Source: Parapedobacter koreensis (GTDB taxonomy: Bacteria; Bacteroidota; Bacteroidia; Sphingobacteriales; Sphingobacteriaceae). From it: a stretch of DNA of 64,000 nucleotides. Position 1 is the first letter of the stretch. The number at the start of each line of letters is the position of its first letter. Where the stretch lies: assembly GCF_900109365.1 (NCBI RefSeq), contig NZ_FNZR01000001.1, positions 62,001 through 126,000 on the forward strand, written 5' to 3'. Under the pieces are notes generated by a model. It did no database searches. It worked only from the letters and a program-made list of their open reading frames with translations, and was not told the DNA's origin. Below, piece after piece: positions 38,026-46,530 of the stretch. The position numbers and the translations under genes are program-made.

Positions 38026-39003
38026 TCAAGGGTGCTTTTCCACTTTATTTCCTAGTGAAAACCGCCTCGAAATGGTAAATCCCCACCTAAATTGACCCTT
38101 CGTCCATGACGAGGTGGTTTCGGGGATGTACTGCATTTCCTGTATCGCGGTAGCATTGGTAAAGTTCAGGTTGAACACGTGGCCACCCGTTTCGATTTCA
38201 AGGCCCACGCCCAATGGGTTGTATAGCGCCGTGATGGCATCCGCATACCTCTCCTTGCTTGCCGTAGAGCGGAAAGGCAGGAAATAATCCATCACAAGCG
38301 CCATACGCCTGCTTACCTTCAGTCTCCCACCAATCCCCATGGCAAACAGGTCATTGCTATCATCGTAGTACGCAGTCATATTGCGCCGGATATATGTGGG
38401 ATGCAACGCCAAGGAAAAATTAGCGCCAAACTTACGCGCAAGGATAAATTGGCCCACAAAGTTTAACCTATCCGAAAACTGTCGATACGATATGGCTTCA
38501 CCTTCATTCTGCCGATCGGCCTCGACCCCGGGGATGGTCATGCTGGTATAGAACGTGATGGAAAGTGGCGCCTTCCCATCAAGTGTCTGTCGCAGTAGTC
38601 GGTATTTCAGGTTAGCCTCGTACAATTGCGATACCCGCGTGGCTCCCTTGGCACGTGCAATGCCTACATTCAGGTAGTCCGTTATTCCATATTCAAAGCC
38701 AATCTTGATATCCGTGGAATTGTCCAGCCCGAAGAAGTTCCTGCCGCCGCCATTGGCTCCTGCAATATCACCGAAGCGGTGATCTACCTTGAAGTCAAGT
38801 TCATGTTTGTGAATGGTCTCGATGGATTGGCCATTGATGATCCGTGTTGTTTTGAATGTAGCCGCTACCTCTTCACGTTCAAGACCTGTGCTATCACCGG
38901 CCAATGCCTTTTCCAAATCGGTTTGCGCCAGCAATCGGCAGCCGATGGCCAACATGGCTGCCACCATAAGTAATTTACGCCCGTTTAATGTTGAAATACA
39001 CAT
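38026..39003 (-). CDS. DUF5777-family outer-membrane beta-barrel protein
   Basis: A 325-aa exported protein: signal peptide LLMVAAMLAIGCRLLAQ, then a region TFKTTRIINGQSIETIHKHELDFKVDHRFGDIAG that I associate with DUF5777, and amphipathic strands to the C-terminal FRWGFTISRRFSLG. It is last in the module Lipoprotein_15, cytochrome c, YceI, DUF5777. Its length (about 300 residues) would allow a 12-16-strand barrel in the outer membrane. Role unknown; the neighbours suggest service to an envelope redox process (inference). Confidence 0.8.
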   Translation of the reverse strand: MCISTLNGRKLLMVAAMLAIGCRLLAQTDLEKALAGDSTGLEREEVAATFKTTRIINGQSIETIHKHELDFKVDHRFGDIAGANGGGRNFFGLDNSTDIKIGFEYGITDYLNVGIARAKGATRVSQLYEANLKYRLLRQTLDGKAPLSITFYTSMTIPGVEADRQNEGEAISYRQFSDRLNFVGQFILARKFGANFSLALHPTYIRRNMTAYYDDSNDLFAMGIGGRLKVSRRMALVMDYFLPFRSTASKERYADAITALYNPLGVGLEIETGGHVFNLNFTNATAIQEMQYIPETTSSWTKGQFRWGFTISRRFSLGNKVEKHP

Positions 39004-39015
39004 AAATGAAATAAT

Positions 39016-39558
39016 TTATTGCTTTTGATAAGTAGATGAGACGTCCACCGCCACTACTTCTGCAATGTTTTTGATCACCACTCGCGGTATCTTGATGTCA
39101 TGGTCGGCCAGCTTCACGTCGAATTTGGCATGGGCTGTCACCGTGGTACCTTTGATTTCGACGGTCGTTTTCACCGCATACGGCTTCTTCACGCCATGGA
39201 TTTCCAAAAAACCCATGACGGTCACTGGATAGCTGCCGTCGCTGCTCCAGTCTATCGGCTCAGTAATCTTGCCGCCAAACGTGGCGTAAGGAAATTTGTC
39301 GCTTTCCAGGTAGTTTTCATTGAAGTGTTCCTGCATCAAGCGCTTGTTGAACACAAAGGATTTTATGGGAACTTTAAAAGCGATTTCATTGGTTTTTGTA
39401 TGAAGCGCGGAGCTTGCATGTTCGGTGGCTGCTGCGATATCTTCTAAAGGAGCTGCCGAAAAAAAAGAAATGTGGCTCCCTCTATCAACCCATATATCCT
39501 GCGCTTCCGCATGGAAGCACAGGATCATAACGAAAAACCAAACATAATATCTCTTCAT
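39016..39558 (-). CDS. YceI-family protein of the cytochrome module
   Basis: A 180-aa periplasmic protein with signal peptide MKRYYVWFFVMILCFHAEAQ and a diverged YceI fold: SHISFFSAAPLEDIAAATEHASSALHTKTNEIAFKVPIKSFVF, LMQEHFNENYLESDKFPYATFGGKI, YPVTVMGFLEIHGVKKPYAVK. Compared with the YceI at 24063, the first strand is reworked and the LKSEDFF motif is replaced by ENYLESDKFP. A soluble lipid or quinone-like carrier role is plausible for this fold. The stop is 12 bp from the DUF5777 start, so they form one operon. Confidence 0.85.
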   Translation of the reverse strand: MKRYYVWFFVMILCFHAEAQDIWVDRGSHISFFSAAPLEDIAAATEHASSALHTKTNEIAFKVPIKSFVFNKRLMQEHFNENYLESDKFPYATFGGKITEPIDWSSDGSYPVTVMGFLEIHGVKKPYAVKTTVEIKGTTVTAHAKFDVKLADHDIKIPRVVIKNIAEVVAVDVSSTYQKQ

Positions 39559-39587: not shown

Positions 39588-39962
39588 TTAATTTTGGGGT
39601 GCTCCCTTGTCTATCCAGGCCTCAAGCAACTGCAATTCGCGGGCGGATAAGCTCCCATTCTGTGGCATGATCCGACGTACAACCACCACATCATTGATGC
39701 GATCCAGGTTGTCATTTACGGAAGCGTAGCCCGAAAAGACCCATCGGGAGGTGCCAGCACCGGCACCCGTGTGGCAGCTGCTGCAACGCGATTGGAACAA
39801 TCCTCCCACAAAGTTGGCATAAGTCACGTTCTCCACCGTGACATCATTTCCACCCCCCGGCGGCGGCGGCTCAGGCGTGGGGCTGTCATTGTCCTTTCCA
39901 CATCCGGCAAAACCAAGCATCACTATCACAAGTAATGCTGCTTTCGATACATACTGTTTCAT
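39588..39962 (-). CDS. Monohaem c-type cytochrome lipoprotein
   Basis: A 124-aa lipoprotein: MKQYVSKAALLVIVMLGFAGC gives a lipobox, followed by a proline/glycine-rich spacer (SPTPEPPPPGGG) and a cytochrome c domain with haem-binding CSSCH (in FQSRCSSCHTG) and a distal methionine candidate in RIMPQNGSLSARELQLLEAWIDKGAP. It should carry one covalently bound haem at the periplasmic or outer leaflet. Start ATG 39962. It lies between the Lipoprotein_15 gene and yceI in one operon. Confidence 0.88.
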   Translation of the reverse strand: MKQYVSKAALLVIVMLGFAGCGKDNDSPTPEPPPPGGGNDVTVENVTYANFVGGLFQSRCSSCHTGAGAGTSRWVFSGYASVNDNLDRINDVVVVRRIMPQNGSLSARELQLLEAWIDKGAPQN

Positions 39963-40019
39963 ACTGTTGTGTTCGTTATTCGTATAGCTAGTTAATAAAA
40001 TAATATGCATATCGATTGG

Positions 40020-40862
40020 TTACGGTGCTGTGGCATCCGGCGAATTGGGGCCCAATACGGGCCATACGCCCACTGCCGGGAAGTTGATTCCCTTCGTCTC
40101 CCCCCTTACAGCATCCTGTCCGAAATAGTAGAGCGGCCACCCTTTATAAGTCAATTGTGTGCGGCCGTGCACTGTAATTTCAGCGAAATCATCTCGGGTG
40201 ACAGCTGACGGAACAGCCCCGGGCGTGGCTCCATATATCGGCCAGACGCCATCATTGCTGAAATCCGGATTCGTAAAATTGTTTGTATTGTAGCGATCGT
40301 TCCGAAACCCATACAACGTACGGCCGTATGCATCGACCAAATAAGGGGTCAGTCCCTCACCCGGTATCAAATCAGCGGTATAGGCCGTGCCATCACCGCC
40401 GACAAGCTGATGGCTCACCAACATGACCGTATAATCGGGCTTAGCTACAAACCAATTGCCGCCTACGCCATCTCCCGTGATTTCACCCGGATTGTCATCG
40501 CCTGAATAGTAATATAACGGCCAGCCTTTATACGTGGTCTGCAAGGAACCATTGGCAAGGGTAATCGTGCTGACATCTTCGCTGTCGATACCTTCGCCGG
40601 ATGCCGCCTCGCTATGATAGGGTGGCCACAGCGACAGGCAATTGCCACTACAGGCTGAGGTACCATCGGCATCAAGCGAAAAAAAATAAAGTGCCCGCCC
40701 CGCTCCATCGGTCAGCACTTGTCCGAAAGTTGCGTGGGCTTGCAAACGGATACCGGTGATTTCCGGTTCCGGCTCGGGCTCATCGTCATTGCAGGAAAGG
40801 ATGGAGAGCGAGACCGCTACGGTCACCACTCCAATCATTCGGGTGGGAAAAAGATCCTTCAT
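40020..40862 (-). CDS. Lipoprotein with two secreted-repeat (Lipoprotein_15) units
   Basis: A 280-aa lipoprotein, lipobox ILSC followed by an acidic linker (NDDEPEPEPE). The body has two copies of the PF03640-type unit: GRALYFFSLDADGTSACSGNC with SLWPP and later TYKGWPLYYYSGD, then GRTLYGFRNDRYN with GVWPIYGA and LTYKGWPLYYFGQDA. The first copy keeps two cysteines that could form a disulphide. Function of the family is unknown. First gene of the four-gene module; its promoter contains the element GGCAACC-N16-CGTATT shared with the divergent sigma gene. Confidence 0.85.
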   Translation of the reverse strand: MKDLFPTRMIGVVTVAVSLSILSCNDDEPEPEPEITGIRLQAHATFGQVLTDGAGRALYFFSLDADGTSACSGNCLSLWPPYHSEAASGEGIDSEDVSTITLANGSLQTTYKGWPLYYYSGDDNPGEITGDGVGGNWFVAKPDYTVMLVSHQLVGGDGTAYTADLIPGEGLTPYLVDAYGRTLYGFRNDRYNTNNFTNPDFSNDGVWPIYGATPGAVPSAVTRDDFAEITVHGRTQLTYKGWPLYYFGQDAVRGETKGINFPAVGVWPVLGPNSPDATAP

Positions 40863-40884: not shown

Positions 40885-40913
40885 AATACGGGGAAAAACA
40901 GCAGGAGGTTGCC
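40885..40913 (-). promoter_or_regulatory. ECF-type promoter of the Lipoprotein_15/cytochrome module
   Basis: On the minus strand GGCAACC (40913-40907), 16 nt, CGTATT (40890-40885). AAC in the upstream half and CGT in the downstream half are hallmarks of ECF-sigma promoters. The start of transcription expected near 40877 leaves a leader of about 15 nt to the ATG at 40862. The same element is repeated on the plus strand 35 bp away. Confidence 0.7.
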
Positions 40914-40947
40914 ACAGCTAGCAGAATAAAAAATTTAGTTGCATCAA

Positions 40948-40976
40948 GGCAACCTTTAGCGACGATCCTCCGTATT
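40948..40976 (+). promoter_or_regulatory. ECF-type autoregulatory promoter of the sigma gene
   Basis: GGCAACC (40948-40954), 16 nt, CGTATT (40971-40976): identical in both boxes and spacing to the divergent element at 40885-40913. Transcription should start near 40984, which excludes the TTG at 40978 as start codon and favours TTG 40996. Confidence 0.7.
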
Positions 40977-40995
40977 ATTGTTAGATAAAGAGAAA

Positions 40996-41589
40996 CGCTT
41001 GCCGACGGTTAATGAAGAAGTAATACAAAAGTATATTGCCGGTTGCCAAAAACACGATAAGGAAAGTCAATATGCTTTGTTCAAGCATTTCTATAGCTAT
41101 GCTATGGGAGTATGCAGGCGTTATGCCCAAAATTCGGACGAAGCATCAGACATTTTGAGCGAAAGTTTCCTGAAAGTATTCAACCATATCGAACACTATG
41201 ACACCTCAAAACCTTTCAAATCGTGGCTTGGGAAAATCGTTACCAATACAGCGATTGACGCTTACCGTGCAAACCTTAAATTTAGCCAGCAGGAGGATGT
41301 AAAAGACCATGAAAACATCAGTGATGAAGCAAGCGTCTATGGTAAATTAGCCTACGACGATTTATTGGCGTTGGTACGATCACTCAGCCCAGCCTATCAA
41401 GCCGTATTCAATCTTTATGCAATAGATGGGTATAGCCACAACGAAATCGCGGAATTGTTGGGCATTACCGTAAACACTTCCAAGTCAAACCTGCATAAGG
41501 CACGCAAAAGGCTTCAGGAATTATTGGATGAAGCGGCCAAAACGGAAGGGACCGCCCGGGCACAAAAACAGGTGACAAGCGGTGAGTAA
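40996..41589 (+). CDS. ECF sigma factor, ECF21-like
   Basis: A sigma-70-family factor of 197 aa. Region 2: YALFKHFYSYAMGVCRRYAQNSDEASDILSESFLKVFNHIEHY and FKSWLGKIVTNTAIDAYR; region 4: LSPAYQAVFNLYAIDGYSHNEIAELLGITVNTSKSNLHKARKRLQELL. This wording is typical of the Bacteroidota-specific ECF21-type group. No ATG opens the frame; TTG 40978 gives six more residues but lies upstream of the predicted transcription start, so I chose TTG 40996. The gene for its likely membrane anti-sigma factor follows after 20 bp. It probably activates its own operon and the divergent cytochrome module. Confidence 0.85.
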   Translation, partial: RLPTVNEEVIQKYIAGCQKHDKESQYALFKHFYSYAMGVCRRYAQNSDEASDILSESFLKVFNHIEHYDTSKPFKSWLGKIVTNTAIDAYRANLKFSQQEDVKDHENISDEASVYGKLAYDDLLALVRSLSPAYQAVFNLYAIDGYSHNEIAELLGITVNTSKSNLHKARKRLQELLDEAAKTEGTARAQKQVTSGE

Positions 41590-41609: not shown

Positions 41610-42794
41610 ATGCAAGATAAACACCCCATAGATAAACTTTTCAAGGACGGGCTTGCCGACCCGCATATCCCTTTTGAAAAAAAGGAATGGCGGGCGCTGT
41701 CAAAAAAACTACATGTACGTAAGGAGCGCAAAATACCGCTGTGGATTTGGGTAGGAAGCGGTGCAGTTGCAGCGGTGATACTTGTTGCCATGTTATTAGT
41801 TATGGATCGCCAGACGCCCACGGAAGATGCTGCAGAATATGCGCGGGAAATACCGCGAACTGCACCATCGGCGGCGGCAGGCGATGATTCCACGACAACA
41901 CCCAATAACAAACAGCATGGTGTACCGGCTATTGCTGCCGAAGGCCGAAGTGGCAAGCCAACCCCACGACTGGTCAATGCTACGCAACATGTATCCCTCA
42001 CACCGCCGGAGCGTAATCAGACTCCAGCGCTACCACGCCCAAACACAGCTTTGCCATACGCATTATACACCCGACCCATAGCCCCTCACCTAACTCCATA
42101 TACAGATAGCCTACACGGCATCTCCTTTGCACACGTGGCCAGTCCGAATGCCACGCTGCGACAAGACCGTGACGCCCTCACCAGCGTGCGCGAACGCAGT
42201 TGGACGTTCAGCATATTGGCCGCCCCGGACTTCTCCGGTACGCAACCGCTGGGTGGTAAGCTCAGTGGCAACGCGGGCCTGATGGTGACCTATCGCCTCA
42301 ACCACTGGCTCACGGCAAGCACAGGTGCCCTTTACGCAAAAAAACGCTATGAAACCGACTTTGCCAACTATCGCCCCGGCCTCCGTTGGAGCGGCGGCAC
42401 AGGCTCACCGAGCCTTGTGATAGCTGACTGTGGCGTGCTCGATATTCCCCTTAATATCGGGGTTGACATCAGCCGGGCTGAACAATCATCTTGGTTTGTG
42501 TCTGCTGGCATATCCAGCTACCTCATGCTACGCGAAACGTATGATTATATTTATCCACCGCACGAATATGGATACCCTAAGCAGATTACCTTATACAACC
42601 AAAACCGCCATATCCTGGGTATCGGCAACCTGTCGGTAGGCTACCGCCGCAAGCTCATGCCCTCGTTGGCACTTACGGTACAACCGTTTGTAAAAGTACC
42701 CCTGACCGGCATCGGCAACGGCAACCTTAAACTTTATTCATCGGGTATAGCCATTTCGGCAGATATTGACCTTACCCGCCGCCGGAAACCATAA
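41610..42794 (+). CDS. Dual-membrane anti-sigma factor (Dma-like): inner-membrane helix plus outer-membrane barrel
   Basis: A 394-aa protein with three parts. Residues 1-45: cytoplasmic anti-sigma-like helices (IDKLFKDGLADPHIPFEKKEWRALSKKL). Residues about 46-66: one transmembrane helix (LWIWVGSGAVAAVILVAMLLVM). Residues about 67-190: a low-complexity proline/threonine-rich linker long enough to cross the periplasm. Residues about 195-394: an outer-membrane beta-barrel-like domain (WTFSILAAPDFSG, GLMVTYRLNHWLTASTGALYAKK, LDIPLNIGVDIS) ending AISADIDLTRRRKP. From memory, proteins with this plan (Dma) were shown in Bacteroides thetaiotaomicron to span both membranes and restrain ECF21-type sigma factors. 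It follows such a sigma gene by 20 bp. Confidence 0.75.
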   Translation: MQDKHPIDKLFKDGLADPHIPFEKKEWRALSKKLHVRKERKIPLWIWVGSGAVAAVILVAMLLVMDRQTPTEDAAEYAREIPRTAPSAAAGDDSTTTPNNKQHGVPAIAAEGRSGKPTPRLVNATQHVSLTPPERNQTPALPRPNTALPYALYTRPIAPHLTPYTDSLHGISFAHVASPNATLRQDRDALTSVRERSWTFSILAAPDFSGTQPLGGKLSGNAGLMVTYRLNHWLTASTGALYAKKRYETDFANYRPGLRWSGGTGSPSLVIADCGVLDIPLNIGVDISRAEQSSWFVSAGISSYLMLRETYDYIYPPHEYGYPKQITLYNQNRHILGIGNLSVGYRRKLMPSLALTVQPFVKVPLTGIGNGNLKLYSSGIAISADIDLTRRRKP

Positions 42795-42895: not shown

Positions 42896-45283
42896 GTGGG
42901 AAAGCACTTTCGTTTGTTTACGTATTTATTGATCATGACCATGCACGTCTATGGGCAATCCGCTCTGTTGTCCGGTGTTGTCCAGGATGAGCAGGGACAG
43001 GCAATACCGGGAGCTTCGGTGAGCATTGGTAATCAATTCGCCTCACAAATTACTGATCAATCCGGTAGGTTTTCATTTTCCGGTCTTCGCTTTGGCAATT
43101 ACACCTTGAAGGTAACACATGTAGGATACGTTGCATACGCCGAGGCGATCACGTTGGAGCGCCCAAAGACCAGTGTCGTCATCCAATTGATCGCCCAATC
43201 GACCATACTGGACGATGTAACCGTCACCGGAAAGACCGAAACCCAACAAGCACGTGAGCAGGCCATACGGGCGGTGGTGGTAGATACCCGCGCCGTAGCC
43301 GAACAGCCCGCTACGCTGGCTGAACTGATGAACCGGGCACCGGGTGTGAGAATCAGGCAGAGTGGCGGATTGGGGAGCCAGCCTGATATTTCCATGAACG
43401 GCTTTCAAGGACGTGCGGTTCGCTATTTCAAAGATGGCATACCCCTCTCCTACTTGGGGGCAGGCTACGGCATACACAATATCCCTGTAAATACCTTGGA
43501 GCGCGTGGAAGTATATAAGGGTGTATTGCCTATTGCTTTGGGCGCCGATGCACTTGGTGGAGCGGTCAACTTGATATCGCAAAGGCAAACAGGTAACCAG
43601 CTTAACGCCAGCTACGAAATTGCTTCGTTCAATACGCACCGGTTGACGGTGAATGCCGGTGCCGACTTCAACCACGGTTGGTACGGTGGTGTGGAAGCTT
43701 TTTATAACTATTCCAAAAACAACTACACCGCGGCGGTGATGGTGACCGACCCCGATACCCGAAATCAAACGGAACAAAACATCGAATTGTTCCATAATGC
43801 CTATAAAGGATATTATACTGAAGGACATATCGGATTAAGGAACCGTCCTTGGGCCGACGACCTCCGTCTTAGCCTTGCTTATTTCGATACAGAACGTCAG
43901 CAACAGCATCCCGCACTCATGACCGATCCATATGGTGCTGTGCTGGGCAAACAATCGTCATTTGTGCCTTCATTGCACTACCAATCGAGTTTCTTCAATG
44001 ATAAGCTAACAATCGACCAATTTGCGGTAGCAAATAATTTAGATCTTCATACGGTCGATACCGCACGTGGTTATTACGATTGGTTCGGGCAGTTCACACC
44101 CGTAACGGGCAGGGTGGGCGAAAGCTCACGTCCGTCCCTATCTAATGTGGATATCTGGCAGCTCACATCGCGCACATATGCCAGGTGGAGCTTCAACGAA
44201 CGCCATGCACTATCCATCAATTATGTGTATATGCGCAGCAGGCGTGAAGGTGAAGATCCGTATGGTCCGCGTTTCTCGGGTACGGACATCGACGTACTAT
44301 CCATTCCCGCCAACTACGCTAAACAGGTAGTAGGCGTAGATTGGTCAGGGGCGTTTACCGACCAATTGCAATTTTCGATAATGGGTAAAGGTTACCGTTA
44401 TCAGTCGCGCGGTACCGAATCCTGGGCCAACAGGCCCATTAACCTTGATGAAGAGGCTTCCGTATCAAAAACCTACGGTGGGGTGGGCGGCTCATTAAAA
44501 TACCAATATGCGCCGAATACATTTGCCCGCTTTTCTACAGAATACGCTTATCGGCTTCCCGAAAGCGAGGAATTGTTTGGCGATGCCATGTGGGTAGTAC
44601 CCAACTTTTCGTTAAACCCCGAGCGGAGTCTGAATGTCAACCTGGGTTTCAACACACGGCAACGCCTTGTCCGTTATGAGGTCAACGCCTTCTATCGGGA
44701 GACCAAGGGTCTCATCCTATTGGTCCCCACCATTGCCCCCTACGCGCAATATCGCAATATTAACAACGTGCGTGGTTTTGGTGTAGAAGCCGACGCTATG
44801 GTAACCTTGACCAATTACCTCCAAGCTACGGCTAATGTCACGTGGCAAAGCCTACGTCTATTTGGCTTTACTTCACCTCAAGACCTGTGGCGCAACGGCA
44901 CCCGCCTGCAGAACACTCCCTTTTTCTTTGCCAATGCTGGCCTAATGAACCGGCTCGAACCATTTGCCAACCACGGCCAGCTCAACACGTATCTGCACTA
45001 CAACTTCGTTAGGGAGTTTTACTTGCAGACTATACCGAAAGACGCTGAACCAGACGGTCCTCTGGGCCTATGGGGAGAAGCAGGCGTCGAATCGGCGGTA
45101 ATTATTCCCAATCAGCATTTGCTCAGCGGCGGCATCAATTACCAGTTTCCAGCAAACCGATATACCTTGGGCATAGAAGTAAAAAACTTAGCTAACACAC
45201 GACTATACGATTATTTCCGCGTACAACGCGCTGGAAGGAGTTTCCATTTAAAATTGACATACCAAATCACAGACAAGACATGA
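42896..45283 (+). CDS. TonB-dependent receptor, XusA-like (cassette 2)
   Basis: Outer-membrane receptor of 795 aa. GTG start, signal peptide (LFTYLLIMTMHVYGQ), a CarboxypepD_reg-like domain (LSGVVQDEQGQAIPGASVSIG), plug motifs (LMNRAPGVRIRQSGGLGSQPDISMNGFQGRAVRYFKDGIP, RVEVYKGVLPIALGADALGGAVNLIS) and a 22-strand barrel ending SFHLKLTYQI. Similar plug wording occurs in the receptors at 10017 and 56069. Its last codons overlap the DUF4374 gene by 4 bp (ATGA). It opens an eight-gene operon for binding, hydrolysis and import, so the ligand is very likely a ferric siderophore. Confidence 0.92.
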   Translation: MGKHFRLFTYLLIMTMHVYGQSALLSGVVQDEQGQAIPGASVSIGNQFASQITDQSGRFSFSGLRFGNYTLKVTHVGYVAYAEAITLERPKTSVVIQLIAQSTILDDVTVTGKTETQQAREQAIRAVVVDTRAVAEQPATLAELMNRAPGVRIRQSGGLGSQPDISMNGFQGRAVRYFKDGIPLSYLGAGYGIHNIPVNTLERVEVYKGVLPIALGADALGGAVNLISQRQTGNQLNASYEIASFNTHRLTVNAGADFNHGWYGGVEAFYNYSKNNYTAAVMVTDPDTRNQTEQNIELFHNAYKGYYTEGHIGLRNRPWADDLRLSLAYFDTERQQQHPALMTDPYGAVLGKQSSFVPSLHYQSSFFNDKLTIDQFAVANNLDLHTVDTARGYYDWFGQFTPVTGRVGESSRPSLSNVDIWQLTSRTYARWSFNERHALSINYVYMRSRREGEDPYGPRFSGTDIDVLSIPANYAKQVVGVDWSGAFTDQLQFSIMGKGYRYQSRGTESWANRPINLDEEASVSKTYGGVGGSLKYQYAPNTFARFSTEYAYRLPESEELFGDAMWVVPNFSLNPERSLNVNLGFNTRQRLVRYEVNAFYRETKGLILLVPTIAPYAQYRNINNVRGFGVEADAMVTLTNYLQATANVTWQSLRLFGFTSPQDLWRNGTRLQNTPFFFANAGLMNRLEPFANHGQLNTYLHYNFVREFYLQTIPKDAEPDGPLGLWGEAGVESAVIIPNQHLLSGGINYQFPANRYTLGIEVKNLANTRLYDYFRVQRAGRSFHLKLTYQITDKT

Positions 45284-46530
45284 AAAAGCAATTTCTTTTC
45301 GCAGTGATACCGACTGCACTATTAGCGTTCGCCGCCTGTTCGGACGACGATCCTACCCCACCGGAGAACGCTACCGCCCAATACCTTGTGCAAACGATGA
45401 GTGCCATTGAACAGGTAAAACCGGGATTCACGGCTGCCTATTCTGAATTTCCGTCAGGAACGATTTCTAATGTTTCTCAACCGAATGCTTTACAGGGTTC
45501 AGCCAATGAGGGCTGGCGTACATATAATGGGATGGTATTCAAAATGTTCAATGCGTCATTTGAGCGGGGCATTTACAAGTTGAATGTGACAGCAGACGGA
45601 CGGATTTCTTATGACCCTTCGTCCATCAAAACCAACAATACCATCAATGGTTCCGGCAATTTTGTCATCGAAAGCGATACCAGGGGTTACTATTGGGATG
45701 CCGATGCTCCATGGATCATCCAGACATTCAACCCGACCACCATGCAACGGACGGGCCAGTTGGATGATGATTTTGAAAGTGCATTAAAACGGGATGACGA
45801 GGGCATTAATTTCCAAGGCATAGGCCAGCATTTCTTAGCCATTAAGCAAGGAAAACTTTATGCAGACATTGTATACAGCAAAGGTAGCGGTGGACAAAGC
45901 GGCATGTTCAATGATTTTTTCGAAGACGTTTACATCGCCGTCATCGATCTCAACACCGGGACTTATGAAAAAACCATTACCGTCGAAAATACCGGAGGTA
46001 TTGCCTACATCAATGACAACGAGATGTTTTCTTTTGACTCCAATGGAGACTTATACATTGTGTTCCAAGGTAGGACAGCGTTGGGCGGATTGTCCAAAAT
46101 TGCGCGTATCAAAGCTAACGAAACCGATATTGATGCATCTTGGGAACTTAAATTCTCCGATTATAATGCTTCAGATGCTGGTAAATTTACCGGTGTATTT
46201 GCCAAAAACGGCAAGCTTATTCTTACGGTCAATCAGGAGCCGTTGGTCGGCGGACCCACTGGCAACATCAATGCCGGCGAAATCTGGAAATTCTATACCG
46301 TCGACATCGCCAGCAAGGCCTTTACAGCGGTAGAAGGTGTAGAGCTTTCTACAAATGCCGGGGGATCTTACGCCGCATTCGAGTTGGATGGCAAGACCAT
46401 TCTCCGCGTAAATGCGCCCAGCAAAGGCATCAGTGGTTTCTATGAACTGAATGGCAATACCGCCACCCAGTTGTTCCGCGTGGCCGAAGGCCATGCCGCA
46501 GGGTTTACCAAAATCAACGTAAACAATTAA
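45280..46530 (+). CDS. DUF4374-like lipoprotein, XusB-like (cassette 2)
   Basis: A 416-aa lipoprotein: signal peptide with lipobox FAAC followed by SDDDPTPPEN, then a propeller-like body (GISFEL-type strands such as YYWDADAPWIIQTFNPTTMQRTG, DVYIAVIDLNTGTYEKTITV, GEIWKFYTVDIASKAF). It is more diverged than the other two DUF4374 genes, but occupies the same place, coupled by an ATGA overlap to the receptor. Expected to sit on the cell surface and capture the siderophore for the receptor. Confidence 0.72.
   Translation: MKKQFLFAVIPTALLAFAACSDDDPTPPENATAQYLVQTMSAIEQVKPGFTAAYSEFPSGTISNVSQPNALQGSANEGWRTYNGMVFKMFNASFERGIYKLNVTADGRISYDPSSIKTNNTINGSGNFVIESDTRGYYWDADAPWIIQTFNPTTMQRTGQLDDDFESALKRDDEGINFQGIGQHFLAIKQGKLYADIVYSKGSGGQSGMFNDFFEDVYIAVIDLNTGTYEKTITVENTGGIAYINDNEMFSFDSNGDLYIVFQGRTALGGLSKIARIKANETDIDASWELKFSDYNASDAGKFTGVFAKNGKLILTVNQEPLVGGPTGNINAGEIWKFYTVDIASKAFTAVEGVELSTNAGGSYAAFELDGKTILRVNAPSKGISGFYELNGNTATQLFRVAEGHAAGFTKINVNN

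Follow-up and report, generated by a model that had tools for sequence, protein, structure and literature searches.

Paired divergent elements of ECF promoter type between a sigma/anti-sigma pair and a lipoprotein-cytochrome operon in Parapedobacter koreensis

Two copies of the sequence GGCAACC-N16-CGTATT, one on each strand, separate two divergent operons in the 64,000-nucleotide stretch of Parapedobacter koreensis DNA analysed here (the window, to which all positions refer). From the sequence and its conservation we infer that the two elements are very probably divergent promoters used by the sigma factor whose gene lies at 40999-41589, and that this factor would drive both its own operon and the divergent operon for a lipoprotein, a cytochrome, a YceI-like protein and a DUF5777 protein. 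The elements are conserved in relatives, where they precede the first gene of the operon in more than one gene arrangement. The features concerned are the following.

38026-39003, minus strand: DUF5777 membrane beta-barrel (Pfam PF19089, E 1.8e-89)
39016-39558, minus strand: YceI-like exported protein (Pfam PF04264)
39588-40010, minus strand: exported cytochrome c with one CSSCH motif, taken from the open reading frame (Pfam Cytochrome_CBB3 below cut-off)
40020-40862, minus strand: Lipoprotein_15 (SCO0930-like) lipoprotein with three repeats (Pfam; NCBIfam SCO0930 below cut-off; LSC lipobox by eye)
40885-40913, minus strand: putative left ECF promoter, toward the Lipoprotein_15 operon; -35 box GGCAACC at 40907-40913, 16-nt spacer, -10 box CGTATT at 40885-40890
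40914-40947, no strand: 34-bp gap between the -35 boxes, centred exactly (40930.5) on an A6 run (40928-40933)
40948-40976, plus strand: putative right ECF promoter, toward the sigma gene; -35 box GGCAACC at 40948-40954, 16-nt spacer, -10 box CGTATT at 40971-40976
40999-41589, plus strand: ECF sigma factor with a probable TTG start at 40999 (mechanical open reading frame 40978-41589; Pfam sigma70 r2 and r4_2)
41610-42794, plus strand: Dma-like anti-sigma candidate of 394 aa (OMP_b-brl_2 below cut-off; AlphaFold2 model; Foldseek)

The paired elements and the genes they flank

A preliminary description of this DNA had claimed that the motif occurs twice, once per strand, and both copies were indeed found at the positions it gave, with identical boxes and spacing. 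AAC and CGT are hallmark bases of ECF promoters. Its further statement that the elements lie at equal distance from the two genes also held if TTG 40999 is taken as the start codon of the sigma gene, as 22 nt then separate the end of the -10 box from the start codon on each side (ATG 40862 in the case of Lipoprotein_15). TTG 40999 is within a GCTTGCCGAC block identical in nine of nine aligned Parapedobacter rows; the mechanical start, TTG 40978, is one base past the -10 box and would therefore be unusable from the right promoter. The rightward gene had been called an ECF sigma factor, and its product is a short sigma70 protein with regions 2 and 4, for which Pfam r2 and r4_2 and TIGR02937 scored above cut-off. 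Its own gene is preceded by what appears, from sequence and conservation, to be an AAC/CGT promoter of the autoregulatory type.

The genome-wide search that the preliminary description had proposed returned the exact GGCAACC-N16-CGTATT pattern only at these two sites (5,547,756 bases, 27 contigs), and the reversed pattern used as control gave no match in the same genome. When the window was shuffled by dinucleotides, 0.01 matches were expected and none of 100 shuffles contained two sites, even with a gap of 14-18 permitted. A chance similarity is scarcely credible, being contradicted by the shuffles, by the genome-wide uniqueness and by the conservation in relatives.

The distance between the two -35 boxes could be compared in 20 rows, giving gaps of 32 (three rows), 34 (six rows), 63-71 (nine rows), 157 and 160 (one row each). 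The inverted symmetry of the GGCAACC boxes and the fixed 34-bp gap in six of nine Parapedobacter rows would also suit an operator for a dimeric regulator in place of promoters. Such an operator is very improbable, as a single element heads the operon in 21 of 23 collinear loci and as it is the 16-nt spacer to CGT that is fixed, whereas the gap between elements varies over the values given above. In a box-aligned comparison of eight of the nine Parapedobacter rows (L103 was excluded because its gap is 157), the central A/T tract, which begins some 16-20 nt from each -35 box on its upstream side, was, apart from the boxes, the one invariant stretch longer than two columns. As a fair guess, it may be an UP element shared by both promoters.

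With respect to the leftward operon, the preliminary description had spoken of a redox set. A cytochrome with one CSSCH motif is present, and to that extent the term stood; as a label for the whole set it has this single haem motif for its sole ground. An in-frame ATG at 39962 within the cytochrome open reading frame would yield a lipoprotein signal peptide. In Lipoprotein_15, residues C71 and C75, four residues apart, were invariant in 13 rows. A model of this protein (pLDDT 86.7) produced no match to a PDB structure at E<=0.001, and a second comparison with Foldseek's candidates gave Z values of only 2.3-2.6, from which we deduce neither a role nor a novel fold. When the sequences were searched against the PDB, YceI had a single weak match, and neither Lipoprotein_15 (E<=0.1) nor DUF5777 (E<=0.5) had any.

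Conservation and distribution among relatives

The sigma factor was matched at E<=1e-20 in at least 137 of 150 genomes searched, its own included. Among the matches listed, 80 loci with their flanks were picked by hand, 40 of them mostly the best and 40 further ones that included second matches in the same genomes. Together with the window, these 81 loci comprised 12 with the divergent order, 23 with a collinear sigma-anti-sigma-YceI-DUF5777 order, four with the module before sigma, three with a divergent Lipoprotein_15 gene only and 39 with none of these. In one of the last group, the Parapedobacter locus L104, the contig extends only a short way upstream of the sigma gene.

Of the 42 loci with the module or Lipoprotein_15, 39 had the pattern GCAACC-N15-17-CGT in the 400 nt preceding the operon head (0.26% in shuffles), and it also preceded 16 of the 39 sigma genes without the module (0.21% in shuffles). 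As the pattern was derived from the window itself, only these hit rates are informative, the box columns being invariant by construction. By type, the element stood ahead of the operon head in 11 of 12 divergent, 21 of 23 collinear, three of three Lipoprotein_15-only and four of four module-first loci, and the loci that carried the module or Lipoprotein_15 but gave no match were L112, L138 and L147. The left element was present in all 12 divergent loci (window included), in the three Lipoprotein_15-only loci and in the three collinear loci that have a divergent Lipoprotein_15 gene. According to the preliminary description, relatives with the same gene order should keep the paired elements, and this was not refuted: in the 11 relatives with the divergent order, the left element was found in all and the right one in 10, the exception being L112, which reads ACAACC. 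The operon heads (39 of 42) and left elements (12 of 12) also favour its claim that both operons would be under shared control of the sigma factor of the window.

The module-first loci belong to one genus with the order lipoprotein-cytochrome-YceI-DUF5777-sigma-anti-sigma, and in the four loci the element is ahead of the first gene; this head was chosen after the element had been seen there, and a head at the cytochrome gene had given none of four. The leading lipoprotein was a CHRD-domain protein in the three loci scanned.

A second set consisted of named genomes and retained the best 80 of at least 584 loci, so near relatives are favoured in it. Within these best 80 of at least 584, the anti-sigma gene adjoined sigma in 78 loci and both YceI and DUF5777 were present in 30, with the motif near the sigma start in 21 of these 30 and in 22 of the 50 loci without the module (18 of 27 and 21 of 48, respectively, once five loci that duplicate the first set were removed). 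In the same best 80 of at least 584, the module loci had the motif in 16 of 16 cases in Sphingobacteriaceae and in none of four in Hymenobacteraceae, and the linkage of sigma and module genes extended to families of Cytophagales and one Balneolota genome. Across the sequences compared, the promoter form seems narrower in range than the gene linkage.

The reverse comparison started from DUF5777. PF19089 had matches throughout the phylum, in 98 of 247 genomes, and 20 loci (L268-L287, two of them on short contigs) were picked by hand from these matches. In these hand-picked loci YceI was near DUF5777 in 17, a cytochrome match in 17 and both in 15, whereas a strong match to the sigma factor of the window was found in one, and two more had weak ECF matches 3-4.5 kb away. 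The cassette is therefore more widespread than the sigma link, being found mostly without a sigma factor of the window type, and the link looks like a trait of some lineages. This scarcity of the sigma factor beside the cytochrome, YceI and DUF5777 genes (a strong match in one of the 20 hand-picked DUF5777 loci) would agree with a sigma factor that drives its own operon alone, the left element being a relic and the module being under another promoter. As all 12 divergent loci have the left element, a relic of this kind is quite unlikely. A locus that is neutral in this respect is L119, from genome G057, where sigma homology ends after about 113 residues in a long open frame that overlaps a TonB receptor gene of opposite orientation. 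No anti-sigma gene was found there, yet the module and both promoter elements persist.

Sigma lineage, paralogues and further targets

A tree of the sigma factors was built from 81 rows and rooted at the midpoint, with a program warning about long branches. One branch, with support values of 96/89, held 50 of the 81 rows, among them 47 of all 55 motif-bearing rows and 40 of the 42 with the module or Lipoprotein_15. A looser pattern (CAACC) was present in 49 of the 50 rows of this branch, the spacer measured 16 nt in all 20 left elements and in 48 of the 49 right ones, and a T was favoured after the -35 box. The motif tracks the clade of the sigma factor, not the presence of the module.

The genome of P. 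koreensis itself has four sigma matches at E<=1e-20 among the matches listed. One of these paralogues, L177 on contig C11, has the -35 sequence GCAACCTTTT, common to both, before its own gene, but with another -10 box. It falls in a neighbouring branch of 17 rows, six of which show the CGT form; these six are among the 16 motif-bearing loci that lack the module. When five rows of that branch (L159, L160 and L176-L178) were read by eye, GCAACC was followed by TCATC or GCATC at the place of the -10 box, compared to CGTA at the locus of the window. In these five rows the -35 box is therefore common to the paralogues and the -10 box is the part that differs, which suggests that paralogous sigma factors within one genome may share a -35 box and be distinguished by the -10 box.

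As a paralogous sigma factor has the same -35 half, cross-recognition is possible. The elements could thus be real ECF promoters with one or both driven by a paralogue of the same genome, alone or through cross-talk, to which the four matches, the -35 box of L177 and the CGT form in 6 of 17 rows of its branch lend something. We consider this unlikely, given the TCATC or GCATC in place of CGTA in the rows read by eye and the concentration of motif-bearing rows (47 of 55) in the branch of the sigma factor of the window.

The pattern GCAACC[AT]TT-N13-CGT[AG] was also searched in nine Parapedobacter genomes, with 18 matches, 12 at the locus and six elsewhere. As the reversed-pattern controls gave 10, there was no sign of further targets in Parapedobacter by this test, which is of low sensitivity, as its pattern misses the left element of the window. 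The shorter GGCAAC-N17-CGTA had 16 matches in the genome of P. koreensis, both sites included, vs. 20 in the controls. A family-wide scan with GGCAACC-N16-CGTA, which matched at least 234 of 301 genomes, was discarded for counting because the pattern is too loose. From the matches listed in it, 20 regions were picked by hand for paired or otherwise promising sites.

In Mucilaginibacter-like genomes the element was observed inside polysaccharide clusters adjoining the sigma operon (L113, L186-L192, L194 and L133). Query proteins resembling Wzx or Wzy were taken from loci selected for the motif; the Pfam matches of the polysaccharide queries were to glycosyltransferase 2 and polysaccharide flippase, and the Wzy-like protein had no Pfam match, so its name is a presumption. 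Homologues of the flippase (Wzx) or of the Wzy-like protein were near sigma in 11 of 161 loci scanned, mostly in Mucilaginibacter or Bacteroidetes assemblies. In seven of these 11 the element lay ahead of the Wzy-like gene and had the orientation of the polysaccharide cluster, which is divergent from sigma, and in three of the 11 it faced the first gene of the divergent cluster. In L133 the polysaccharide cluster is downstream of sigma, and the element again precedes the Wzy-like gene.

The proposed circuit and its relation to known systems

The preliminary description had also proposed a dual-membrane anti-sigma factor, and this layout gains support from an AlphaFold2 model built on 29 aligned sequences. 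The model predicts N-terminal helices at 6-16 and 24-39 (block pLDDT 62-79), a helix at 44-65 covering a hydrophobic stretch (a putative membrane helix), a disordered tether over about 68-190 (pLDDT nearly all below 50 over 68-188) and a C-terminal barrel of about eight strands at 197-387 (block pLDDT mostly 82-97). The best PDB matches of the barrel in Foldseek were OmpA-type barrels, with E 1.7e-08.

The circuit that we infer comprises recognition of both promoters by the sigma factor of the window, its contact with the anti-sigma protein, a signal, an activation step and a role for the A-tract. The co-encoded anti-sigma protein would hold sigma at the inner membrane: its sigma-binding part would lie in the cytoplasm and its barrel in the outer membrane, with the single membrane helix and the long tether between them. 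Once the barrel senses a signal from the envelope, sigma would be freed. To the right it would then transcribe its own operon (autoregulation) and to the left, from the identical promoter, the Lipoprotein_15-cytochrome-YceI-DUF5777 operon. Because the promoters are identical, both operons would be expected to rise together, and the central A-tract may serve both as an UP element.

Downstream of the anti-sigma gene, at 42896-46530, the window encodes an MxcH-like TonB receptor (match below cut-off) and a lipoprotein of 416 aa that matched no family, and the two follow the anti-sigma gene in four of nine Parapedobacter genomes. The gap ahead of them contains a sigma70-like match and an AT-rich palindrome similar to a Fur box, so these two genes may be under separate regulation.

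A wider reading joins the observations from the different genera, although we propose it as no more than tentative and somewhat doubtful. The Dma-type sigma clade would keep one promoter code, (G/A)GCAACCTTT-N13-CGT(A/G), and the divergent promoter would have captured envelope outputs that differ between genera. In Parapedobacter these would be Lipoprotein_15, cytochrome, YceI and DUF5777, at several Pedobacter loci just Lipoprotein_15, and in Mucilaginibacter polysaccharide genes. The anti-sigma barrel may sense the state of the output, and the A-tract midway between the promoters may couple them.

The preliminary description knew of no account of this system. In the open-licence literature searched we found no description of a unit formed by sigma and a lipoprotein-cytochrome-YceI-DUF5777 operon, and no mention of DUF5777, so that the statement stands for the output and the promoter; it does not for the circuit type, since a Dma-type circuit has already been described in Bacteroides. 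A concrete candidate promoter is hereby supplied for a clade of Dma-like sigma circuits whose output, in this case, is built from families of obscure role such as DUF5777 and Lipoprotein_15. Loss of the anti-sigma protein should turn the module on, giving a direct route to the roles of these proteins and to the signal of the barrel.

According to the main text of PMC13088901, Dma1/Das1 and Dma2/Das2 of Bacteroides thetaiotaomicron are ECF21 sigma factors with dual membrane-spanning anti-sigma factors. Dma2 has an N-terminal binding part, one transmembrane helix, a disordered tether and a C-terminal barrel, and the dma2 operon and its neighbours were among the most changed genes (PMC13088901). 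The present locus is similar in that an ECF sigma gene adjoins that of an anti-sigma candidate with the same modelled layout; the likeness is one of gene adjacency and anti-sigma layout, outside any placement of our sigma factor in ECF21. The words motif and YceI do not occur in that main text, nor does ECF21 in the main text of PMC3817407, where ECF sigma factors are described as usually transcribing their own operon and promoter motifs were derived from upstream regions. Compared to the Bacteroidota cytochrome-YceI-DUF5777 cassette, the gene set is as here (15 of the 20 sampled loci), whereas a window-type sigma gene adjoins it in one of 20. In contrast to autoregulated ECF operons in general, as presented in the main text of PMC3817407, a divergent target operon here bears a promoter identical to that of the sigma operon. 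And whereas the output studied for Dma/Das in the main text of PMC13088901 is vesiculation and polysaccharide-use loci, the predicted output in Parapedobacter is the lipoprotein-cytochrome-YceI-DUF5777 operon with its paired promoter.
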